DNA of 21,855 bases from a virus. The stretch lies in IMG/VR virus record IMGVR_UViG_3300046000_008088, positions 1 through 21,855 of that record; one strand, written 5' to 3'. Made by a program: the position numbers and the translations under genes. The notes below the pieces were generated by a model, which was given only the letters and a program-made list of their open reading frames with translations, ran no database searches and had not been told where the DNA came from. Shown in pieces: positions 4,531 to 17,518 of this stretch (the first letter of the stretch is position 1; the number at the start of each line of letters is the position of its first letter).

Positions 4531-4587
4531 TACTTCCGCATCACAATCTGGTGCCTTCACTGGAAGGATACCCCCTTTGCGGAAGCG
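4531..4587 (+). repeat. Arm-type repeats, P side of attP
   Basis: TACTTCCGCAT at 4531-4541 is an exact 11-bp inverted copy of the arm site at 4380-4390. TGCGGAAGCG at 4578-4587 is an exact direct copy of the site at 4358-4367 and lies inside the last codons of the GIY-YIG gene. Together with the three copies on the other side they bracket the tRNA core, which supports an integrase/Xis arm-site function. Confidence 0.55.
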
Positions 4588-5219
4588 ATTTCGCGCCTAA
4601 ATCCGAGTCCTTGTACGTTGAATACTGGCGCCAGGGTTTTTATTAGGACTCCCTCAATCTCCAGGCGCTCACGCTCTTCTTTAATGTGAATCATCTTTAC
4701 AGTTTGGAATTCCTTTTCTTGATGCCCGACCATTCTGGAAAGTACGTTTCTTGACTGACCAACATACACCACCTCCCCGGATTTATTCAAAAGTAAGTAG
4801 ACACCTGGCGCTGGTCTAGCATCGGTTGCAGAGGCCATTAGCTTTATGATTTTCACGCTATGCGGCGTTGAATCTACCTCTACAACCTTCACCCGTATGC
4901 GCTGACGTTCTTGTTCAAGTTCGACGCGCAGGTTGTCTCTATCCAAAGCTATAGCCTCGTAAGGTGATGTTTTTTCAGATGGTTGTAGGGACAGACTGTG
5001 GGCAAGAGACGCGGCCCATACGTGCTTCACAAGGTATCGTTTTACAGGCCCAGTCCTGTTTTTTGATTCCTCTGTGATGTACTTAATTCGATCACGGACG
5101 CTATCAAACCAAGGCCCAAATGCGCGACCTTCAATGGTAAATAGTTCTTTCATCTTCCCCTGAGACAACCATTGATTTTTGTACGGTTGTATCCATTCAG
5201 GCATTTTTTGATTTGTCAT
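4557..5219 (-). CDS. GIY-YIG domain protein coupled to integrase
   Basis: A 220-aa protein. A C-terminal GIY-YIG nuclease-type domain covers residues about 137-202: GVY at 139-141, VYVGQS at 151-156, conserved Arg in SRNVLSR (157-162), Glu 189 in IEGVLIKTLAPVFN, and Asn 201. All key residues of an active GIY-YIG centre appear present. The first 130 residues match no domain I recognise; residues about 95-112 are a charged helix. Its ATG overlaps the integrase stop (ATGA), so it is translated with integrase. It ends about 60 bp from the attP core and one arm site lies inside its coding end. The DNA is clearly more AT-rich than the neighbouring genes, suggesting later acquisition. It could be a homing-type endonuclease, an integration accessory factor or an anti-competitor nuclease; the role is unknown. 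Confidence 0.8.
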   Translation of the reverse strand: MTNQKMPEWIQPYKNQWLSQGKMKELFTIEGRAFGPWFDSVRDRIKYITEESKNRTGPVKRYLVKHVWAASLAHSLSLQPSEKTSPYEAIALDRDNLRVELEQERQRIRVKVVEVDSTPHSVKIIKLMASATDARPAPGVYLLLNKSGEVVYVGQSRNVLSRMVGHQEKEFQTVKMIHIKEERERLEIEGVLIKTLAPVFNVQGLGFRREIASAKGVSFQ

Positions 5220-6217
5220 CGTACCGCTTTCAGCTCTGTGCCCTTTGTCCGGTAGTGCTTGGCGGTGAGCGCCTTGCTGCTGTGCTGGAGCAACTTGCTG
5301 GCTTCGTCCATATCGTCGGCCAGATCAGCCGCCCGCTTGCGGGTGTCGCGCAGGTACATCGCTTTGATGTCTTCGGCCAGCTTTGGGTTGGCCGCTGCTG
5401 CCGCAATCCTGGCTGCGTCATACCGGGTGCGCAGCATTGATGCTGACACCGCCCGGCCCGTCGATGTGGTGAGCAGCATCACGCAGTCGGCATTGCCCCG
5501 GCGATCAATCAGCGCAGTCAGCACGGGCGACTTGTCCACCACAAAGTAATCCCACTTGCCTGTCTTGCCAGCACGGAAGCGAAGGCGACCGTCCACCGGC
5601 ATCCGCACCGTGCGGGCGTCGGTAAGGCGCATACCCGTGGTGGTGGCGATGTCCATGCAGTCGCGCAGCACCTGGTCGCCATGCTCATACACCGCATTGA
5701 ACAACTCGGTGGTGACCTCAAACTCGCGGGCATGCTCTTCGTTCTTCCAACCCTTGATGCCAGCAGCAGGCCACGCCAGCTCAGTCATGCCCCACAGCTT
5801 GGCTTTGCCCCAAATCACTGACAGCAGGGCCAGCTCACGGTTGCCCTGGGTCTTGGCGGTTCTGTTGTCAAGGTACTGGCGCAGCACCGGAAGGTTGATC
5901 TCATGCCACCCGGCCTTACCGAACACAGGCTCAAGCTGGCGCAGGTTCTTCTTGTAACCCTTGATTGTTTCCGCGCTTGTGTAGGTAGGCAGCACGCGCT
6001 CGACAAAGCGCTCGATGGCCTCCTGCACCCGGCCCTTGGTCATGGGCACATGGTTGGTCAGCTTGTCCCATTGCTGGATTGCGGAGGCGTAGTCAGTCCC
6101 CAACGCAATGTCAGGCTTTCCGGTTCCGCGCATGTCGTACCAAAAACTTGTCCAGACCTGGCCGCCCGCGCCCTTTCGGGTGTGGGATCTGAGTCTTGGG
6201 TACTTTGACTTTTTCAT
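5216..6217 (-). CDS. int: Tyrosine-type site-specific integrase
   Basis: A 333-aa phage integrase that should recombine attP with a host tRNA-Leu gene. The N-terminal part (residues 1-50, with KKSKYPRLRSHTRKG and a W-T-x-F-W-Y-D segment) resembles an arm-binding or DUF3596-like region. Residues about 60-150 form the core-binding SAM-like domain. The catalytic domain shows Arg 197 in TTGMRLTDA, Lys in KTGKWDYF, Arg in YLRDTRKRAAD, His in LLQHSS and KHY, and the nucleophile Tyr 322 in KHYRTKG. The start is ATG at 6217, overlapping the stop of the excisionase-like gene as ATGA. It lies at the far end of the leftward replication operon instead of having an obvious private promoter, so its expression probably follows PL. 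Confidence 0.93.
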   Translation of the reverse strand: MKKSKYPRLRSHTRKGAGGQVWTSFWYDMRGTGKPDIALGTDYASAIQQWDKLTNHVPMTKGRVQEAIERFVERVLPTYTSAETIKGYKKNLRQLEPVFGKAGWHEINLPVLRQYLDNRTAKTQGNRELALLSVIWGKAKLWGMTELAWPAAGIKGWKNEEHAREFEVTTELFNAVYEHGDQVLRDCMDIATTTGMRLTDARTVRMPVDGRLRFRAGKTGKWDYFVVDKSPVLTALIDRRGNADCVMLLTTSTGRAVSASMLRTRYDAARIAAAAANPKLAEDIKAMYLRDTRKRAADLADDMDEASKLLQHSSKALTAKHYRTKGTELKAVR

Positions 6218-6417: not shown

Positions 6418-6536
6418 TTATTCCTCCATTCCCTAGATTTCAAAAGCGCCTTTAACTCCCGCTCCCAACGGGTTGGCTTGGCGGGCTTCGGTGGTGCTGC
6501 TGTAGGTCTTGGCTCGCGCCAGTGAAAATCGTTCAT
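6414..6536 (-). CDS. 40-aa minigene between winged-helix gene and xis
   Basis: A short frame reading MNDFHWREPRPTAAPPKPAK and then TRWERELKALLKSREWRNK. The ATG at 6536 overlaps the upstream stop (ATGA at 6533-6536), and its own stop overlaps the xis start (ATGA at 6414-6417). It fills the only space between those genes. The N-terminal half is Pro/Ala-rich and flexible; the C-terminal half is a strongly basic amphipathic helix. That arrangement suits a small DNA-, RNA- or protein-binding peptide. No family recognised. The double overlap makes translation likely. Confidence 0.65.
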   Translation of the reverse strand: MNDFHWREPRPTAAPPKPAKPTRWERELKALLKSREWRNK

Positions 6537-6913
6537 AGCAACCCTGCCCACATACCGGCTGCGGCCTTGCGCTGAGATTGCGGACGCTGTGCCGTGATGG
6601 TCGCCTTGTTACGCTGGTACGACTTGCGGCAGACTTCGTTGTGTTCAACACGCTCTGGTCGCACAGCGTCAGGTCGCCACTTGCCCGCCGCGTAGATTGG
6701 CACGAGCTGGCCCTGTTTGCCACACTCCTGTCGCTCGTAGTGCTGGATGTAGATCAAGCCGCGCACTCGCAGTCTGCTAACGCTGTCCTTGATCGACATT
6801 CGCGTCCTTCCTGTAAGCGGCACCAACTCCGCTGCACTCATGCCGCCGATCTCCGTGAGCAGGCGCAGCACTTCGTTTGAGAGTGTGGGCGTTCGTCCTG
6901 CTTTCTGTGTCAT
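6533..6913 (-). CDS. Winged-helix DNA-binding protein
   Basis: The start chosen is ATG at 6913, which overlaps the upstream stop as ATGA; longer frames would run deep into the neighbour. The product is 126 aa. Residues about 10-60 (LSNEVLRLLTEIGGMSAAEL, then GRTRMSIKDSVSRLRVRGLI) form a helix-turn-helix with a following wing (YIQHYERQ). This resembles phage MarR/DprA-type winged-helix proteins that sense DNA and regulate early genes. The C-terminal part, after about residue 85, is basic (RKSYQRNKATITAQRPQSQRK). It is encoded just before the minigene, xis and int, so it may tune excision or early transcription. The specific target is unknown. Confidence 0.7.
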   Translation of the reverse strand: MTQKAGRTPTLSNEVLRLLTEIGGMSAAELVPLTGRTRMSIKDSVSRLRVRGLIYIQHYERQECGKQGQLVPIYAAGKWRPDAVRPERVEHNEVCRKSYQRNKATITAQRPQSQRKAAAGMWAGLL

Positions 6914-7710
6914 TGCTGCTCTCCTTGTGCTGCTGCAATCCCTGCACGTACTGCCGCTTGCGCTTTGTTGAGTATGAGTTTTGATCCGCAATCCAACCAA
7001 GCATCCGCCGCTGCTTTGGCCTGTTCATGGGTAGGCTCAATCGGAACCAGCTTCCAACCATCTTGTGGTGCCGTCCACGACTCACGCATTTCAGCTTCTT
7101 TAGACCACGGCACGAATGGCATTGCAGGCTTGGCTTCCACTGGCTGTGGTGCGGCTTTGGATAGGATCGCAGCAAAGCCGTCAAGCTCGTCGGATAGTGG
7201 GTATCGCACCTCTGGCTTCTCTCCAGTGTTTACGGCATGAATAAATGCAGATGCTTCAAGCAACGCCGCTACCAGTTCCGCATTCACATCCTTCGCTGGC
7301 TGTGGTGCTGCACCGGCTGCGTAGAGTGGTTGCCAAGTCGGGCGCTCCCACGTAGCCAGATATGCAATCTGAGCATTTGTCGGCGGTGTGGTGCTGTATG
7401 AAACATGCCCCCGATCTTCGTCATCCACAAATCTCCAAGCCACCGGCTCCTGCTGCTCAAGGGCGGTGAGCTTGGCGCTGAGTGCATCACGCTCCACCTT
7501 GTGCGCTGCTGCCATGTCATCAGCGGCTTTGCGGTACTCGGTGACTTCGGTTTGCAGTTTTGTGATCTGCTCGTCACGCACTGTTATCGTCGCCAGCAGT
7601 CCGTCTCTCGTCTTTTCAGTCCACGCAAGCTGCTCAGTCAGCTCAGTGACGCGATCTGCACAGCGTCGGCCTCCGTCTGCTGCGGATAGGTAGGGGGTGT
7701 GGTTGGTCAC
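6910..7710 (-). CDS. Coiled-coil phage protein with EPVAWR...PLYA module
   Basis: A 266-aa protein with a GTG start in a GTGA overlap. Residues about 15-88 are a long coiled coil (TEQLAWTEKTRDGLL ... LSAKLTALEQQ). A module, EPVAWRF ... PLYAAG, follows at about 90-135 and recurs in many proteobacterial phage hypothetical proteins. A second recurring piece, DGWKLVPIEPTHEQ, lies near residues 218-231, followed by an Ala-rich helical end. These modules appear in different combinations among phages and have no assigned activity. No signal peptide or membrane segment is seen. It lies between DUF6378 and the winged-helix gene with coupled junctions on both sides. Confidence 0.7.
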   Translation of the reverse strand: MTNHTPYLSAADGGRRCADRVTELTEQLAWTEKTRDGLLATITVRDEQITKLQTEVTEYRKAADDMAAAHKVERDALSAKLTALEQQEPVAWRFVDDEDRGHVSYSTTPPTNAQIAYLATWERPTWQPLYAAGAAPQPAKDVNAELVAALLEASAFIHAVNTGEKPEVRYPLSDELDGFAAILSKAAPQPVEAKPAMPFVPWSKEAEMRESWTAPQDGWKLVPIEPTHEQAKAAADAWLDCGSKLILNKAQAAVRAGIAAAQGEQQ

Positions 7711-12976: not shown

Positions 12977-14204
12977 GGTCTGTGCCCTCCTCTAAAGTGT
13001 CAAAGGCATCGGCGCTGCGCAGCACCAGGGCCTCGCGCTTGTCCGACTCCGGGGCCACGCTGGGTTTGCCCGCAGCCTGGGTGATAAGGGTCTGGAGCAC
13101 AGGCCACTGGCGTGGTCCGATTTCCTTGGCCTTGAACAGCTTTTCGGCGCTGGTGGGGCTAATGACCGAGTAGTCGTACATCAGTTCGTGCTTGACGCGC
13201 ATGGTCTTGAGGGTTTCCTCTGCCACCTTGGCGTCAGTCCAGGCGCGGCTGCCTTTGCGGCCCTGCACCAGCTTGAAGCCGGTGACGGGGGTGCCCTCCA
13301 ACAGGCGGCGCGCGGCCTCGGCGCGCACGCTGGCGCACCACTGCTCGACCAGTTCAACCTTGGCCATGCAGTAGCCCAGGTCGTCGGGGGCGTGTGTTGC
13401 CACGGTGGCCGGGGTGTCCAGGTTCTCAAAGTCGGACAGGTTGGCCTGGCCTGTGGTGACGTGTTGCACCTCGGCCAGCAGCTTGGGGCAAGTGGCCTTG
13501 GCTTTGCAGAATTTGCACTGCGACTCGCCGGGCACCATGTCCTCCAGGCCCACGATGCCGGTTTGTACGATGTCCATCGCCTTGCGGGCTGCGTCCTTGG
13601 CACGCTTGCCAAATGCCAACAGGTCAGGGATCAGCATGCTGTGCTCGGACAAGTGATCCAGGCGTGGCTGGTGGATGGCCATGTGCACGAACTTCACATC
13701 GGCCACTGCGCTGAACTGGTCGTAAGCGCCCAGGGCGTACAGCATCATTTGCTCGTTGTCCGCAGCATCCACGCGCACGCCGCGGCCGTATTTCAGGTCA
13801 TCGACGTACAGGTCTTCGCCATCATCGGACAGGATCAGCGCATCGGCCGTGCCGAACTGGTCGGGCACATCGACGAAGCGGCTGAACTGCACCCGCTGCT
13901 CGACCATCAGATCCTTGCCGTAGGCGCGGACCCGCACCTGGTTCAGGTAGGTCTGGACGTGGGCGGCCATGTCGGCGTCCACCGTGTACTCGCGTCCGCT
14001 GTCTTTGACCTTGATAACCCGGCCCAGGTAGTGGTCGGCGTTGACCGAGTTGGTCAGGCAGTCGCTGGCCAGGGTGTGGGCGGCGGTGCCCTCGTCGGCA
14101 AACGCGCTGCTGGTGTCCTTCTTGTCGGACTCCAGGAACACGGAGGCCGGGCACTTTAGCCACCGATGTGCCGACGATGGCGATAATTTTGCGTGATCAG
14201 ACAT
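12969..14204 (-). CDS. DUF2800 Cas4/RecB-like nuclease with Fe-S cluster motif
   Basis: I choose ATG at 14204 (MSDHAKLSPSSAHRWLKCPA), whose first 8 bases overlap the HNH gene stop; the longer frame to 14288 would run through that gene. The 411-aa product shows PD-(D/E)XK features: GTADALIL near residue 120 and D136-L-K138 in VDDLKYGRG, then Q-M-x-Y-A-L. Cys 18 plus C230, C233 and C239 (CKFCKAKATC) give the four-cysteine arrangement that binds a 4Fe-4S cluster in Cas4 and AddB-type nucleases. DUF2800 proteins accompany DUF2815 SSB and phage polymerase. It is likely an exonuclease for replication or recombination. Confidence 0.85.
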   Translation of the reverse strand: MSDHAKLSPSSAHRWLKCPASVFLESDKKDTSSAFADEGTAAHTLASDCLTNSVNADHYLGRVIKVKDSGREYTVDADMAAHVQTYLNQVRVRAYGKDLMVEQRVQFSRFVDVPDQFGTADALILSDDGEDLYVDDLKYGRGVRVDAADNEQMMLYALGAYDQFSAVADVKFVHMAIHQPRLDHLSEHSMLIPDLLAFGKRAKDAARKAMDIVQTGIVGLEDMVPGESQCKFCKAKATCPKLLAEVQHVTTGQANLSDFENLDTPATVATHAPDDLGYCMAKVELVEQWCASVRAEAARRLLEGTPVTGFKLVQGRKGSRAWTDAKVAEETLKTMRVKHELMYDYSVISPTSAEKLFKAKEIGPRQWPVLQTLITQAAGKPSVAPESDKREALVLRSADAFDTLEEGTDLV

Positions 14205-14691
14205 TCGCGTAACTCCATTGAAAGCCCTTGTGGTGCGTGTACGCACCCCGCAGGCATTGGTGAATCCCTCTACGGTTGAACCCCGCACGGGCTGCGGCTA
14301 AGATCGACCCGAAGGACATGCTTTCACCGGGTTTTTGGGCGAGCACGGCTCTCTCATTGCCGACCTGGCGCCCGAGAACCCGGTACGCATGCAGATGGTT
14401 TTCGCTGCAAGTCGCCCACTCAAGGTTTGCCAGGGCGTTGTCTGAACGGTCGCCGTTCTTATGATTGACGTGGGGCTTGCTCTCCTGGTTCTCCAAGAAG
14501 GCAAGGGCCACAAGTCGGTGCACTTTTTTGTCGCTCTTCTTGCAGGGGCTCCCCGACCAGAGCGATACCTGCATGTACCCGTCCTTGTCCGCACGGGGCT
14601 TTAGCGCGCGCCCGGTGCGTGAGTTGCTGACTACGCCCGACTCACTCACTTCGTAGAGGCCCGCGAAGTCCTCGATGTAGCGGCTTTTCAC
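14197..14691 (-). CDS. HNH homing endonuclease (NUMOD4-HNH)
   Basis: The likely start is GTG at 14691 in a GTGA overlap with the upstream stop (164 aa); an ATG at 14709 is possible. Residues 1-45 are NUMOD4-like (SRYIEDFAGLYEVSESGVVS). Residues about 55-105 are the HNH_3 nuclease: VHRLVALAFLEN, then HVNHKNGDRSDNALANLEWA with catalytic H-N and final N. The C-terminal residues about 118-160 resemble a NUMOD1-type DNA-binding helix with SILAAARAGFNRRGIHQCLR. Free-standing enzymes of this type copy their own gene into related phages. Its stop overlaps the DUF2800 start by 8 bp, so the host operon remains coupled after insertion. Confidence 0.9.
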   Translation of the reverse strand: MKSRYIEDFAGLYEVSESGVVSNSRTGRALKPRADKDGYMQVSLWSGSPCKKSDKKVHRLVALAFLENQESKPHVNHKNGDRSDNALANLEWATCSENHLHAYRVLGRQVGNERAVLAQKPGESMSFGSILAAARAGFNRRGIHQCLRGAYTHHKGFQWSYANV

Positions 14692-15146
14692 GCCAGTGCC
14701 GCTTCGCAATGGGTTACCACTTCGGCGTACTGCGCGGCCTTGAGCTCGGGGCCCTTGGTCACACCGAAGGCGGCCAGCACGGCACGGGCGGCATCACCAC
14801 CTTTTTCCTTGGACAGCTTCAGGATCAGGGCTTTCACCTGGTCATAGCTGGTGGCCCCAGCTTCGGCAGCAGGTGATGCAGCGGCGGTTTCCTTTTGTGG
14901 GCTGGCCGCAGCAGGCTTTGGGTCAGGGGTCGCAGCAGTCGAGGCTGGCGCAGGGCTGGCCGCAGTGTCGGCAGTGGGGGCTGACTCGGCGACCGTCTTC
15001 AAAGGCGCAGCGGCCTTGGCAGTAGCTGGGCCAGACACAACCGCGGGGACCGCAGCAGGCTTTGGGAGAGCACCGGCCGCGACCAGGGCGGCGGTCAGGG
15101 CGTGGAGGGCGGCGGTATTGGCCGCCAGGGTTTCTTCTAATGACAT
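14688..15146 (-). CDS. Ala/Pro-rich phage protein with conserved C-terminal helical domain
   Basis: A 152-aa protein with ATG at 15146 and a good AAAGG ribosome binding site. The N-terminal helix (LEETLAANTAALHALTAALV) may oligomerise. Residues about 27-95 are a low-complexity Ala/Pro/Thr linker. The C-terminal residues about 98-150 (YDQVKALILKLSKEKGGDAA and the following FGVTKGPELK) form a compact helical domain also seen at the ends of various phage early proteins. The layout (oligomerising head, flexible linker, small globular tail) suggests an adaptor. Function unknown. The next gene overlaps it by GTGA. Confidence 0.65.
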   Translation of the reverse strand: MSLEETLAANTAALHALTAALVAAGALPKPAAVPAVVSGPATAKAAAPLKTVAESAPTADTAASPAPASTAATPDPKPAAASPQKETAAASPAAEAGATSYDQVKALILKLSKEKGGDAARAVLAAFGVTKGPELKAAQYAEVVTHCEAALA

Positions 15147-15793: not shown

Positions 15794-15812
15794 AGCCCGC
15801 GTTTAGCGGGCT
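15794..15812 (-). terminator. Terminator of the lysogeny operon
   Basis: The stem AGCCCGC/GCGGGCT with a 5-nt loop (15794-15812) is followed on the minus strand by six T residues. This is a strong intrinsic terminator 21 bp past the stop of the secreted HNH gene. It separates the repressor operon from PL, so lysogenic transcription would not enter the replication genes. Confidence 0.85.
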
Positions 15813-15832
15813 GGGTTTTGGTGCTGGTTACG

Positions 15833-16108
15833 CTATTTGCGGCACAGCTTGGCTTCGCGTTTGGTCTTGGCCTTGTGTTCAGCCACGGTGAGCCACTGCA
15901 AATTGGTAGTGTCGTCGAGCCCGAGGCACTTCAAGGGGTCTATGTGGTCAATCTGCCAGCCCGGGCATGGCAGTCTGTGCTGCCCCGTAGATGGGCACGC
16001 CTGCAAGTTTACAAACTCGCGCAGCACCTTTTTACTGCGGGCATATTCGGCTGTAGCCCCCGTGGATAGTGCGCAGGCAGCTATCAAAAAGATAGCTCTC
16101 CTAAACAT
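15833..16108 (-). CDS. Secreted (periplasmic) HNH-type protein in the repressor operon
   Basis: A 91-aa protein. Residues 1-20 (MFRRAIFLIAACALSTGATA) are a typical signal peptide with an A-T-A cleavage site. The mature part carries an HNH motif: W-Q-I-D54-H55 in PGWQIDHIDPLKC, N69 in TTNLQWL, and H78 in VAEHKAKTK, a DH-N-H arrangement. Four cysteines (38, 48, 61, 89) could form disulfides or bind metal. Similar small exported HNH proteins occur in Burkholderiales genomes, usually without a defined role. Its ATG follows the upstream stop after one base (TAG-A-ATG), and a strong terminator follows it. Being made with the repressor, it should be present in the lysogen, where a periplasmic nuclease could attack entering phage DNA. 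That role is my inference. Confidence 0.78.
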   Translation of the reverse strand: MFRRAIFLIAACALSTGATAEYARSKKVLREFVNLQACPSTGQHRLPCPGWQIDHIDPLKCLGLDDTTNLQWLTVAEHKAKTKREAKLCRK

Positions 16109-16109
16109 T

Positions 16110-16532
16110 CTAAAACGCGTACGCCGCTAAAAAACCCAATATGCTGTAGTAGGCGGCGCACGCGAGGGCTGCGTGGCCTGGGGTTGGTGCGGGGATAAAC
16201 TCGGCCAAGGCAAATATCGGAAGCGACCCCGCCCACACGGCGTGCAAAACGCGCTCCGCGCCTTTGCGTTTCGTTTCGCGGGTTTCGTACATTTGCTTTT
16301 CGCGCTTATGTTGGGCGAGATCAACGCCACGTTTGGCGTCTGCTTGTTCGCTCGCATCTTGCGCTATTATTTCGTGAAGGCTTGCCCTGGCCACCCTAAC
16401 GCGCGCGTCCTCGATCACGCTGACGCGCTGTTTTGCGAGTTGCAATTCAGCGTCAAGAGCTTCGATACTTTTTACTTTTAGCGCGTTCGCCCTGTCTATC
16501 TCCGCGCGCATGGTTTCGTTGGTGTGCAGCAT
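16110..16532 (-). CDS. Membrane-anchored coiled-coil protein in the repressor operon
   Basis: A 140-aa protein. Residues about 5-95 are one long charged helix (MRAEIDRANALKVKSIEALD through KREKQMYETRETKRKGAERV), likely a coiled coil. Residues about 96-115 (VLHAVWAGSLPIFALAEFI) and 119-139 (HAALACAAYYSILGFLAAYA) are two membrane segments forming a hairpin. No enzymatic motif is seen. The ATG directly follows the repressor stop (TGAATG), so the two are co-translated and the protein should be made in lysogens. Membrane proteins linked to a phage repressor commonly alter superinfection or host envelope properties. Its partner may be the exported HNH protein encoded next. Confidence 0.7.
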   Translation of the reverse strand: MLHTNETMRAEIDRANALKVKSIEALDAELQLAKQRVSVIEDARVRVARASLHEIIAQDASEQADAKRGVDLAQHKREKQMYETRETKRKGAERVLHAVWAGSLPIFALAEFIPAPTPGHAALACAAYYSILGFLAAYAF

Positions 16533-17189
16533 TCACACGTCCATTTCCATGCGCTTGACCACCCCGCAAAACACCGCGTCGGGTTTCATTTCCATGATGG
16601 GGTATCGAGGGTTTAGGGGCTTGAGGTAGCGAGTCTCGCCGTCTACCATGAGCTGCTTGAAGGTGGCTTCACCCCCGTTGTGCCGAACAATCACAAAGGA
16701 TCCTGACGCAGGGTTCTCCTCGGGTTCCACAATCAGGATCGCGCCGTCGGGAAATTTTGGCTCCATGCTGTCGCCGCGCACCCGAAGCGCGTAAGTGTGC
16801 TTGCGCACCCGGTATGTCGTATGGATACGCTCGCCCTCCCCAGGGTGCAAATTGTCAATCACATCGCACCACTGTCCCGCTTGTATCCAGGAGATCAGGG
16901 GCACGGTTCCTTTTAAGTCGGGGCCGTCTTCGGTGTTCCCGTACTGGATGCGTTCGGCTTCGATAAATAGGTCGATCACCGCGCACCCCAACGCCGCGGC
17001 CAACTTGGTGAGCATGAGCTCGCTGTAGCCCTGTTTGCTGTTTTCCACCTTGGAGAGCGTCCCCCTGTGGAGGCCCATAGCGTCCGCGACTTGGTCGAGC
17101 GTTTTCCCCCTACGCAGCCTGATGCTCTTGATGCCCGGGCCAAGGAGGATCGTTCTCGAATCTGAATCTGAAGGGTGTTGTTCGCTCAC
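16533..17189 (-). CDS. cI: CI-like repressor with S24/LexA-type autoprotease domain
   Basis: I select GTG at 17189 (218 aa), not the longer open frame to 17300, because the latter would read through the promoter and operators. Residues about 18-75 are an XRE-type helix-turn-helix (IKSIRLRRGKTLDQVADAMG and LHRGTLSKVENSK). Residues about 95-218 are the S24 peptidase: Ala104-Gly105 cleavage site in WIQAGQW, Ser141 in GDSMEP, and Lys178 in EATFKQL. It should repress PR and PL and self-cleave on RecA activation, giving SOS induction. No ribosome binding site precedes the GTG and the predicted PRM start lies at the GTG itself, suggesting a leaderless mRNA as for lambda cI. Confidence 0.9.
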   Translation of the reverse strand: MSEQHPSDSDSRTILLGPGIKSIRLRRGKTLDQVADAMGLHRGTLSKVENSKQGYSELMLTKLAAALGCAVIDLFIEAERIQYGNTEDGPDLKGTVPLISWIQAGQWCDVIDNLHPGEGERIHTTYRVRKHTYALRVRGDSMEPKFPDGAILIVEPEENPASGSFVIVRHNGGEATFKQLMVDGETRYLKPLNPRYPIMEMKPDAVFCGVVKRMEMDV

Positions 17190-17223: not shown

Positions 17224-17243
17224 TATGTATTTTGCAACAGGGG

Positions 17244-17273
17244 TTGACGAAATGTTGCGATTAGGGCAACAAT
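17244..17273 (+). promoter_or_regulatory. PR, rightward early promoter with operator
   Basis: TTGACG (17244-17249), an 18-bp spacer, AACAAT (17268-17273). The dyad ATGTTGC-GATTAGG-GCAACAA (17252-17272, one mismatch from perfect symmetry) lies between the two hexamers, so bound repressor would exclude polymerase. Further GCAAC half-sites are at 17213 and 17234. The predicted start near 17280 leaves a leader of about 29 bases before the Cro-like gene. Confidence 0.65.
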
Positions 17274-17308
17274 GCCGGGGATTTGCGATTTATCAACCAA
17301 GGAACCCC

Positions 17309-17518
17309 ATGCACTCCCCCTTGAAACAAACCCGACTTCGACGCGGCGGCACCTTGGCCGCGGTGTCTGCTGCGGTCGGCACCAATACCGGCAACCTGTC
17401 CCGCATCGAAAACGGTAAGCAAAAGGCCAGTCCCAAGCTGGCCGCCAAGCTGGCGCTCTACTTCGGGCATGAGATCACTGAAATTCAGATCCTCTATCCA
17501 GAGCGGTACGCGCAGTGA
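17309..17518 (+). CDS. cro: Cro-like HTH protein
   Basis: I use ATG at 17309, preceded by AAGGA at a proper distance; the longer open frame from 17225 would include the promoter. The 69-aa product is one XRE/Cro-CI helix-turn-helix domain: LKQTRLRRGGTLAAVSAAVG with recognition helix NTGNLSRIENGKQ, then LAAKLALYFGHEIT. It lies divergently from the CI-like gene, as Cro does in lambdoid phages, and should bind the shared operators to turn down PRM and the early promoters. The first gene of the PR operon; its stop TGA shares its last base with the primase ATG (TGATG). Confidence 0.82.
   Translation: MHSPLKQTRLRRGGTLAAVSAAVGTNTGNLSRIENGKQKASPKLAAKLALYFGHEITEIQILYPERYAQ

Follow-up and report, generated by a model that had tools for sequence, protein, structure and literature searches.

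The last gene of a prophage repressor operon encodes P0001, a protein of 91 amino acids predicted to be an exported HNH-fold DNase. The reading preferred here, held at a probability of about 0.5, is that P0001 is lysogenic-conversion cargo that destroys incoming DNA, likeliest that of natural transformation. The most defensible part of this reading is narrower: P0001 appears to represent a family of exported HNH-fold DNases that have an unusual two-form active site and travel as lysogenic-conversion cargo within the repressor operons of prophages. The finding places a common, unnamed family of exported nucleases in a prophage region that is still active in the lysogen, makes testable the idea that prophages protect the periplasm from the DNA of transformation or of phages, and offers two HNH active-site designs that can be compared as a natural pair within one family.

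The repressor operon

The window, which is the whole stretch of DNA analysed, is a temperate-phage record of 21,855 bases that carries genes for an integrase, a terminase, a family A DNA polymerase, an M15 peptidase, an S24 repressor, and a Cro-like protein. The integrase gene (5216..6217, minus strand; phrog_1, 6e-12) supplies the temperate-phage context. The CI-like repressor gene (16533..17189, minus strand; GTG start, TGA stop) encodes 218 amino acids with a helix-turn-helix (HTH) and an S24 peptidase domain; its Pfam and PHROGs matches are PF00717 (S24) at 2.9e-27, PF01381 (HTH_3) at 7e-10, and phrog_4 at 5e-39. The TGA of the repressor gene is followed directly by the ATG of the gene for the membrane protein P0002 (16110..16532, minus strand; 140 amino acids, TAG stop), and the P0001 gene (15833..16108, minus strand) starts one base past that TAG. 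An intrinsic terminator (15794..15812, minus strand), consisting of a stem-loop and then a T run, ends the operon; its stem of 7 bp has 6 G-C pairs, with a folding z of -3.0 against shuffles. The divergent Cro-like HTH gene (17309..17518, plus strand; HTH_3 at 3e-8 on the longer ORF 17225-17518) marks the immunity region. Reading the ORFs directly from the sequence gives the three-gene order, both junctions, and the terminator as they were first described. From this operon structure we infer that P0001 would be expressed in the lysogen, driven by the repressor promoter.

Three other genes of the window encode proteins of nuclease or exclusion type. A second HNH protein, which belongs to the homing type NUMOD4/HNH_3 and is unrelated to P0001, is encoded in the early region (14197-14709, minus strand); a GIY-YIG domain protein (4557-5219, minus strand) overlaps the end of the integrase gene; and a Ren-like exclusion protein (6533-7000, minus strand) is seen as a weak match to phrog_142 (4.4e-4).

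The exported HNH protein

The Pfam HNH match of P0001 scores 16.8 bits, under the curated cut-off of 21.4, and a search against the PHROGs HNH families gives a match at 5e-6. A Pfam cut-off is a detection threshold and not a defining structural feature, so the HNH membership of P0001 rests on fold and motif; the sub-threshold match is real. In the AlphaFold model, which has pLDDT above 90 over the core, beta strands at residues 51-55 and 70-74 and a helix at 75-88 form the beta-beta-alpha metal fold. HNH domains are the best matches among solved structures, the nearest being the HNH domain of Cas8f-HNH (PDB 8ydb, 9sjn), to which the sequence match is weak (8.5e-4). Cas8f-HNH and P0001 share the beta-beta-alpha core and a histidine at N+9; unlike P0001, Cas8f-HNH is cytoplasmic, fused to Cas8, RNA-guided, and without a signal peptide. 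The motif that had been read as DH-N-H with four cysteines is present as D54-H55-N69-H78, and the mature protein has exactly four cysteines (residues 38, 48, 61, and 89).

A signal peptide is predicted at about residues 1-20, with cleavage after MFRRAIFLIAACALSTGATA and before EY. The AxA motif that ends at the cleavage site is conserved across the family and supports this prediction, and hydropathy finds an N-terminal hydrophobic core in 64 of 71 viral members; the signal peptide first proposed for the 91-residue protein is thus borne out at the level of family-wide prediction. Lipoprotein processing at LIAAC (residues 8-12) was considered and is disfavoured, since the cysteine is not conserved and the AxA motif is. 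Cysteines near positions 61 and 89 are both present in 73 family members and both missing from 7, with one mixed case; they are kept or lost together, as for a disulfide, and the four cysteines of P0001 behave in their sequence pattern as two disulfides would. The conserved signal peptide and the cysteine pattern together point to export of P0001.

A family with a two-form active site

Searching viral contigs with P0001 yields two close relatives (78% and 69%); a small alignment then gives 80 viral and 80 genome-contig loci, or 73 and 77 once duplicates are removed. The relatives occur on plasmids as well as in contigs of Acidobacteria, Methylococcales, and Burkholderiales, where most are without a nearby repressor. 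The family is widespread, common, and unnamed; searches of solved structures and of the literature found no description of it.

D54, H55, and N69 are invariant in all 81 aligned sequences, and the invariant residues also include R24, F32, C38, C48, and G63. The third metal ligand takes one of two forms: 19 of the 81 members, P0001 with its full D-H-N-H set among them, have histidine at N69+9 (H78), always with threonine at N69+13 (T82), and the other 62 have alanine, glycine, or serine at position 78, always with D82. There are no exceptions or intermediates (Fisher p = 7e-19, with no correction for common ancestry). The residues at 52 and 73 change along with these, so that Q/E52-L73-H78-T82 (19 members) alternates with V/I52-Q73-A,G,S78-D82 (62 members). 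This alternation suggests that the third ligand has moved by one helical turn, from H78 to D82, along the helix at 75-88.

Doubt could be raised from the same alignment as to whether the protein is a nuclease in practice: 62 of the relatives are without the third histidine and one plasmid relative is without the catalytic DH motif, as might be seen in a degenerate or structural secreted protein that keeps the fold for DNA binding. Such a role is very improbable, given that D82 is found exactly where H78 is missing and that P0001 itself is complete; the invariance of D54, H55, and N69 together with an exceptionless alternation of ligands is what is expected of a selected active site. The family alignment and the model support the HNH fold that was proposed earlier and show its catalytic residues to be conserved.

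Linkage to S24 repressors

HNH loci were scored as linked when an S24-type repressor gene lay on the same strand no more than 1,200 bases upstream. By this rule 28 of the 67 viral loci with enough sequence are linked, as against 3 of 61 genome-contig loci, which are mostly cellular; most viral loci have no detected adjacent S24 repressor, under a profile so conservative that several loci scored as unlinked also show HTH genes nearby. Because one related phage group contributes several of the HNH sequences, the loci are not independent; with relatedness allowed for, clustering at 70% identity leaves a linked member in 19 of 48 clusters, and clustering at 60% in 10 of 19. A further, separate set of 301 Comamonadaceae genomes, which includes a Rhodoferax prophage already present in the viral and contig set (L010/L088), contains the family in 17 genomes, and 7 of about 20 loci read have a same-strand repressor upstream of the HNH gene. 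The order repressor, small membrane protein, HNH protein is seen at two of the Comamonadaceae loci (L173 and L187). The co-occurrence with S24 repressors in other prophages that was to be looked for is therefore found, as regards the HNH family, in both viral loci and Comamonadaceae genomes.

Among the unlinked loci, Mor (6 hits) and GemA (3 hits) are found upstream of the HNH gene at L025, L050, L059, L069, L071, and L076, and some relatives lie just after Mor in Mu-like phages, with hits assigned to loci by eye. Other family members adjoin lysis genes. Lysogenic expression is thus not universal in the family, and the function may not need it.

Relatives without a nearby repressor and on plasmids also fit a generic exported nuclease that serves as a fitness gene, through nucleotide scavenging, clearing of extracellular DNA, or biofilm control, and has nothing to do with prophage defence. 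This is rather improbable: the family is strongly over-represented next to prophage repressors, which points to a role connected with lysogeny, P0001 is small and single-domain, and the window shows no adjacent phosphatase or uptake gene.

Proposed function

According to the preferred reading, that of a transformation-blocking DNase, the repressor promoter would drive P0001 synthesis in the dormant prophage, the protein would reach the periplasm through Sec export, with cleavage by signal peptidase, and two disulfides would fold it there. Judging from its active site, P0001 would then cut double-stranded DNA short of the cytoplasm. With self and non-self DNA in different compartments, an immunity protein would be unnecessary. 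The likeliest benefit would be to guard the prophage against incoming DNA, chiefly from natural transformation, which could replace the prophage locus through recombination, and perhaps also against the DNA of phages held up in the periplasm. What the evidence supports is an exported nuclease of the lysogen, and its target is inferred. ComEC is present in 12 of 12 HNH-bearing host genomes checked, which does not discriminate because ComEC is near-universal, and no match to ComEA attains the curated cut-off.

P0001 has in common with known transformation-blocking DNases an origin in a mobile element, export (predicted for P0001), a predicted DNase activity, and presumed expression in the dormant state; the mobile element in this case is evident from the integrase, repressor, and terminase genes on a viral record. 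To our knowledge none of these DNases belongs to the short HNH family of P0001, and we know of none whose gene closes a repressor operon. They comprise Dns of CJIE1 and the CJIE2/CJIE4 nucleases in C. jejuni, IdeA in V. cholerae, and YokF in B. subtilis (PMC4774983, PMC3995785); their effect on transformation is documented, and that of P0001 is a prediction. Under the action of secreted DNases from mobile elements, natural transformation falls by between one and three orders of magnitude (PMC4774983, PMC3995785, PMC11472951).

The membrane protein and the slot after the repressor

P0002 is predicted to be helical over residues 2-109, as one long helix, and again over 118-139; behind the long helix comes a hydrophobic hairpin at the C terminus, which is also apparent from hydropathy, as expected from the initial description of a two-span membrane protein with a long coiled coil. 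It matches no family in Pfam or PHROGs and no relative was found in phages, plasmids, or viral contigs; the 301 Comamonadaceae genomes contain one match, which is weak and interrupted by an internal stop. The Lys/Arg-rich stretch RETKRKGAER lies directly before the hairpin and, by the positive-inside rule, probably places the helical arm in the cytoplasm, on the side opposite to the exported HNH protein. Tethering of the HNH protein by P0002, as the sequence-only reading had suggested, is for this reason unlikely, and the self-protection role that it offered as an alternative would be unneeded for an exported enzyme that depends on disulfides. A conserved P0001/P0002 pair is also rejected: P0002 is without a convincing relative, and the middle gene differs from phage to phage, with unrelated envelope proteins taking its place elsewhere. 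At the closest such locus, L003, the same gene order has in the middle an unrelated two-span protein of 77 amino acids. The likeliest role for P0002 is that of independent envelope cargo at this position, not of an obligate partner. Of the exclusion system originally envisaged, the HNH fold, the predicted export, and the repressor linkage stand, and the conserved two-gene system does not.

Under a simple hydropathy criterion, 25 of the 31 repressor-linked loci have one or more envelope-directed genes between repressor and HNH gene; genes of this kind make up 29 of 38 in that interval and 153 of 836 in the remainder of these loci (odds ratio 14, p 7.5e-14). A position on the repressor side is classical for exclusion genes. 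Counts and position both favour a two-part form of superinfection exclusion, in which phage DNA would be stalled at the inner membrane by an interchangeable small membrane protein and then destroyed in the periplasm by the HNH protein. A periplasmic nuclease would be useful when another protein blocks entry, as when the T4 DNA of a superinfecting phage is trapped in the periplasm and degraded by endonuclease I of the host. Precedent is provided by SNIPE, a membrane-placed nuclease that can cut phage DNA as it is injected (PMC13190303; reviewed in PMC12904381), and by T4 Imm and Spackle, small membrane or periplasmic exclusion proteins of which Imm stops DNA from crossing the membrane (PMC9311878, PMC7677548). 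SNIPE resembles the predicted P0001 in using a position in the cell envelope against entering foreign DNA (PMC13190303); it combines GIY-YIG and DUF4041 domains and is membrane-anchored and cytoplasm-facing, whereas P0001 is an HNH protein predicted to be soluble, exported, and without an anchor, and a Pfam search found neither DUF4041 nor GIY-YIG in P0001 or P0002. Imm and Spackle, likened here by description, differ in that they are not nucleases and are early genes of a lytic phage.

Against two-part exclusion, the membrane partners are not homologous between phages, and neither P0001 nor P0002 matches the PADLOC models (PADLOC-DB 2023). Envelope genes, moreover, are also found after repressors in loci without the HNH gene. 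The window repressor alone as query retrieves two loci, and an alignment of related repressors was used in its stead; that alignment was built from HNH-linked loci, and the 9/65 rate it gives is probably inflated. Among the loci collected by repressor similarity (L192-L271), the first downstream gene on the repressor strand codes for a membrane or secreted protein in 22 of 44 cases that lack HNH and in 6 of 9 that have it. The slot is thus a general site for envelope cargo, and the co-occurrence of membrane protein and HNH gene, which may reflect position only, is by itself no proof of a functional pair; this control weakens the signal for an HNH-specific pairing with membrane proteins, which was not retained. 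While it crosses the periplasm, the DNA of tailed phages is usually inside a tube, which also counts against such exclusion. Superinfection exclusion is a plausible function, but its two-part form is accordingly unlikely, if worth keeping in view. Slightly less likely still is a broader version, an undescribed but widespread entry block with two active-site forms, in which the lysogen would make the periplasmic HNH protein together with one of many interchangeable small membrane proteins from the repressor operon, and the two would destroy phage DNA during its injection.

At three loci, a protein of 256-258 amino acids is encoded after the repressor (L035:2951-3718, L048:2991-3767, and L049:1153-1923), with an HSDR_N domain in L035. 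It precedes a small membrane protein or lipoprotein gene and then the exported HNH gene, an arrangement that possibly represents layered defence cargo.
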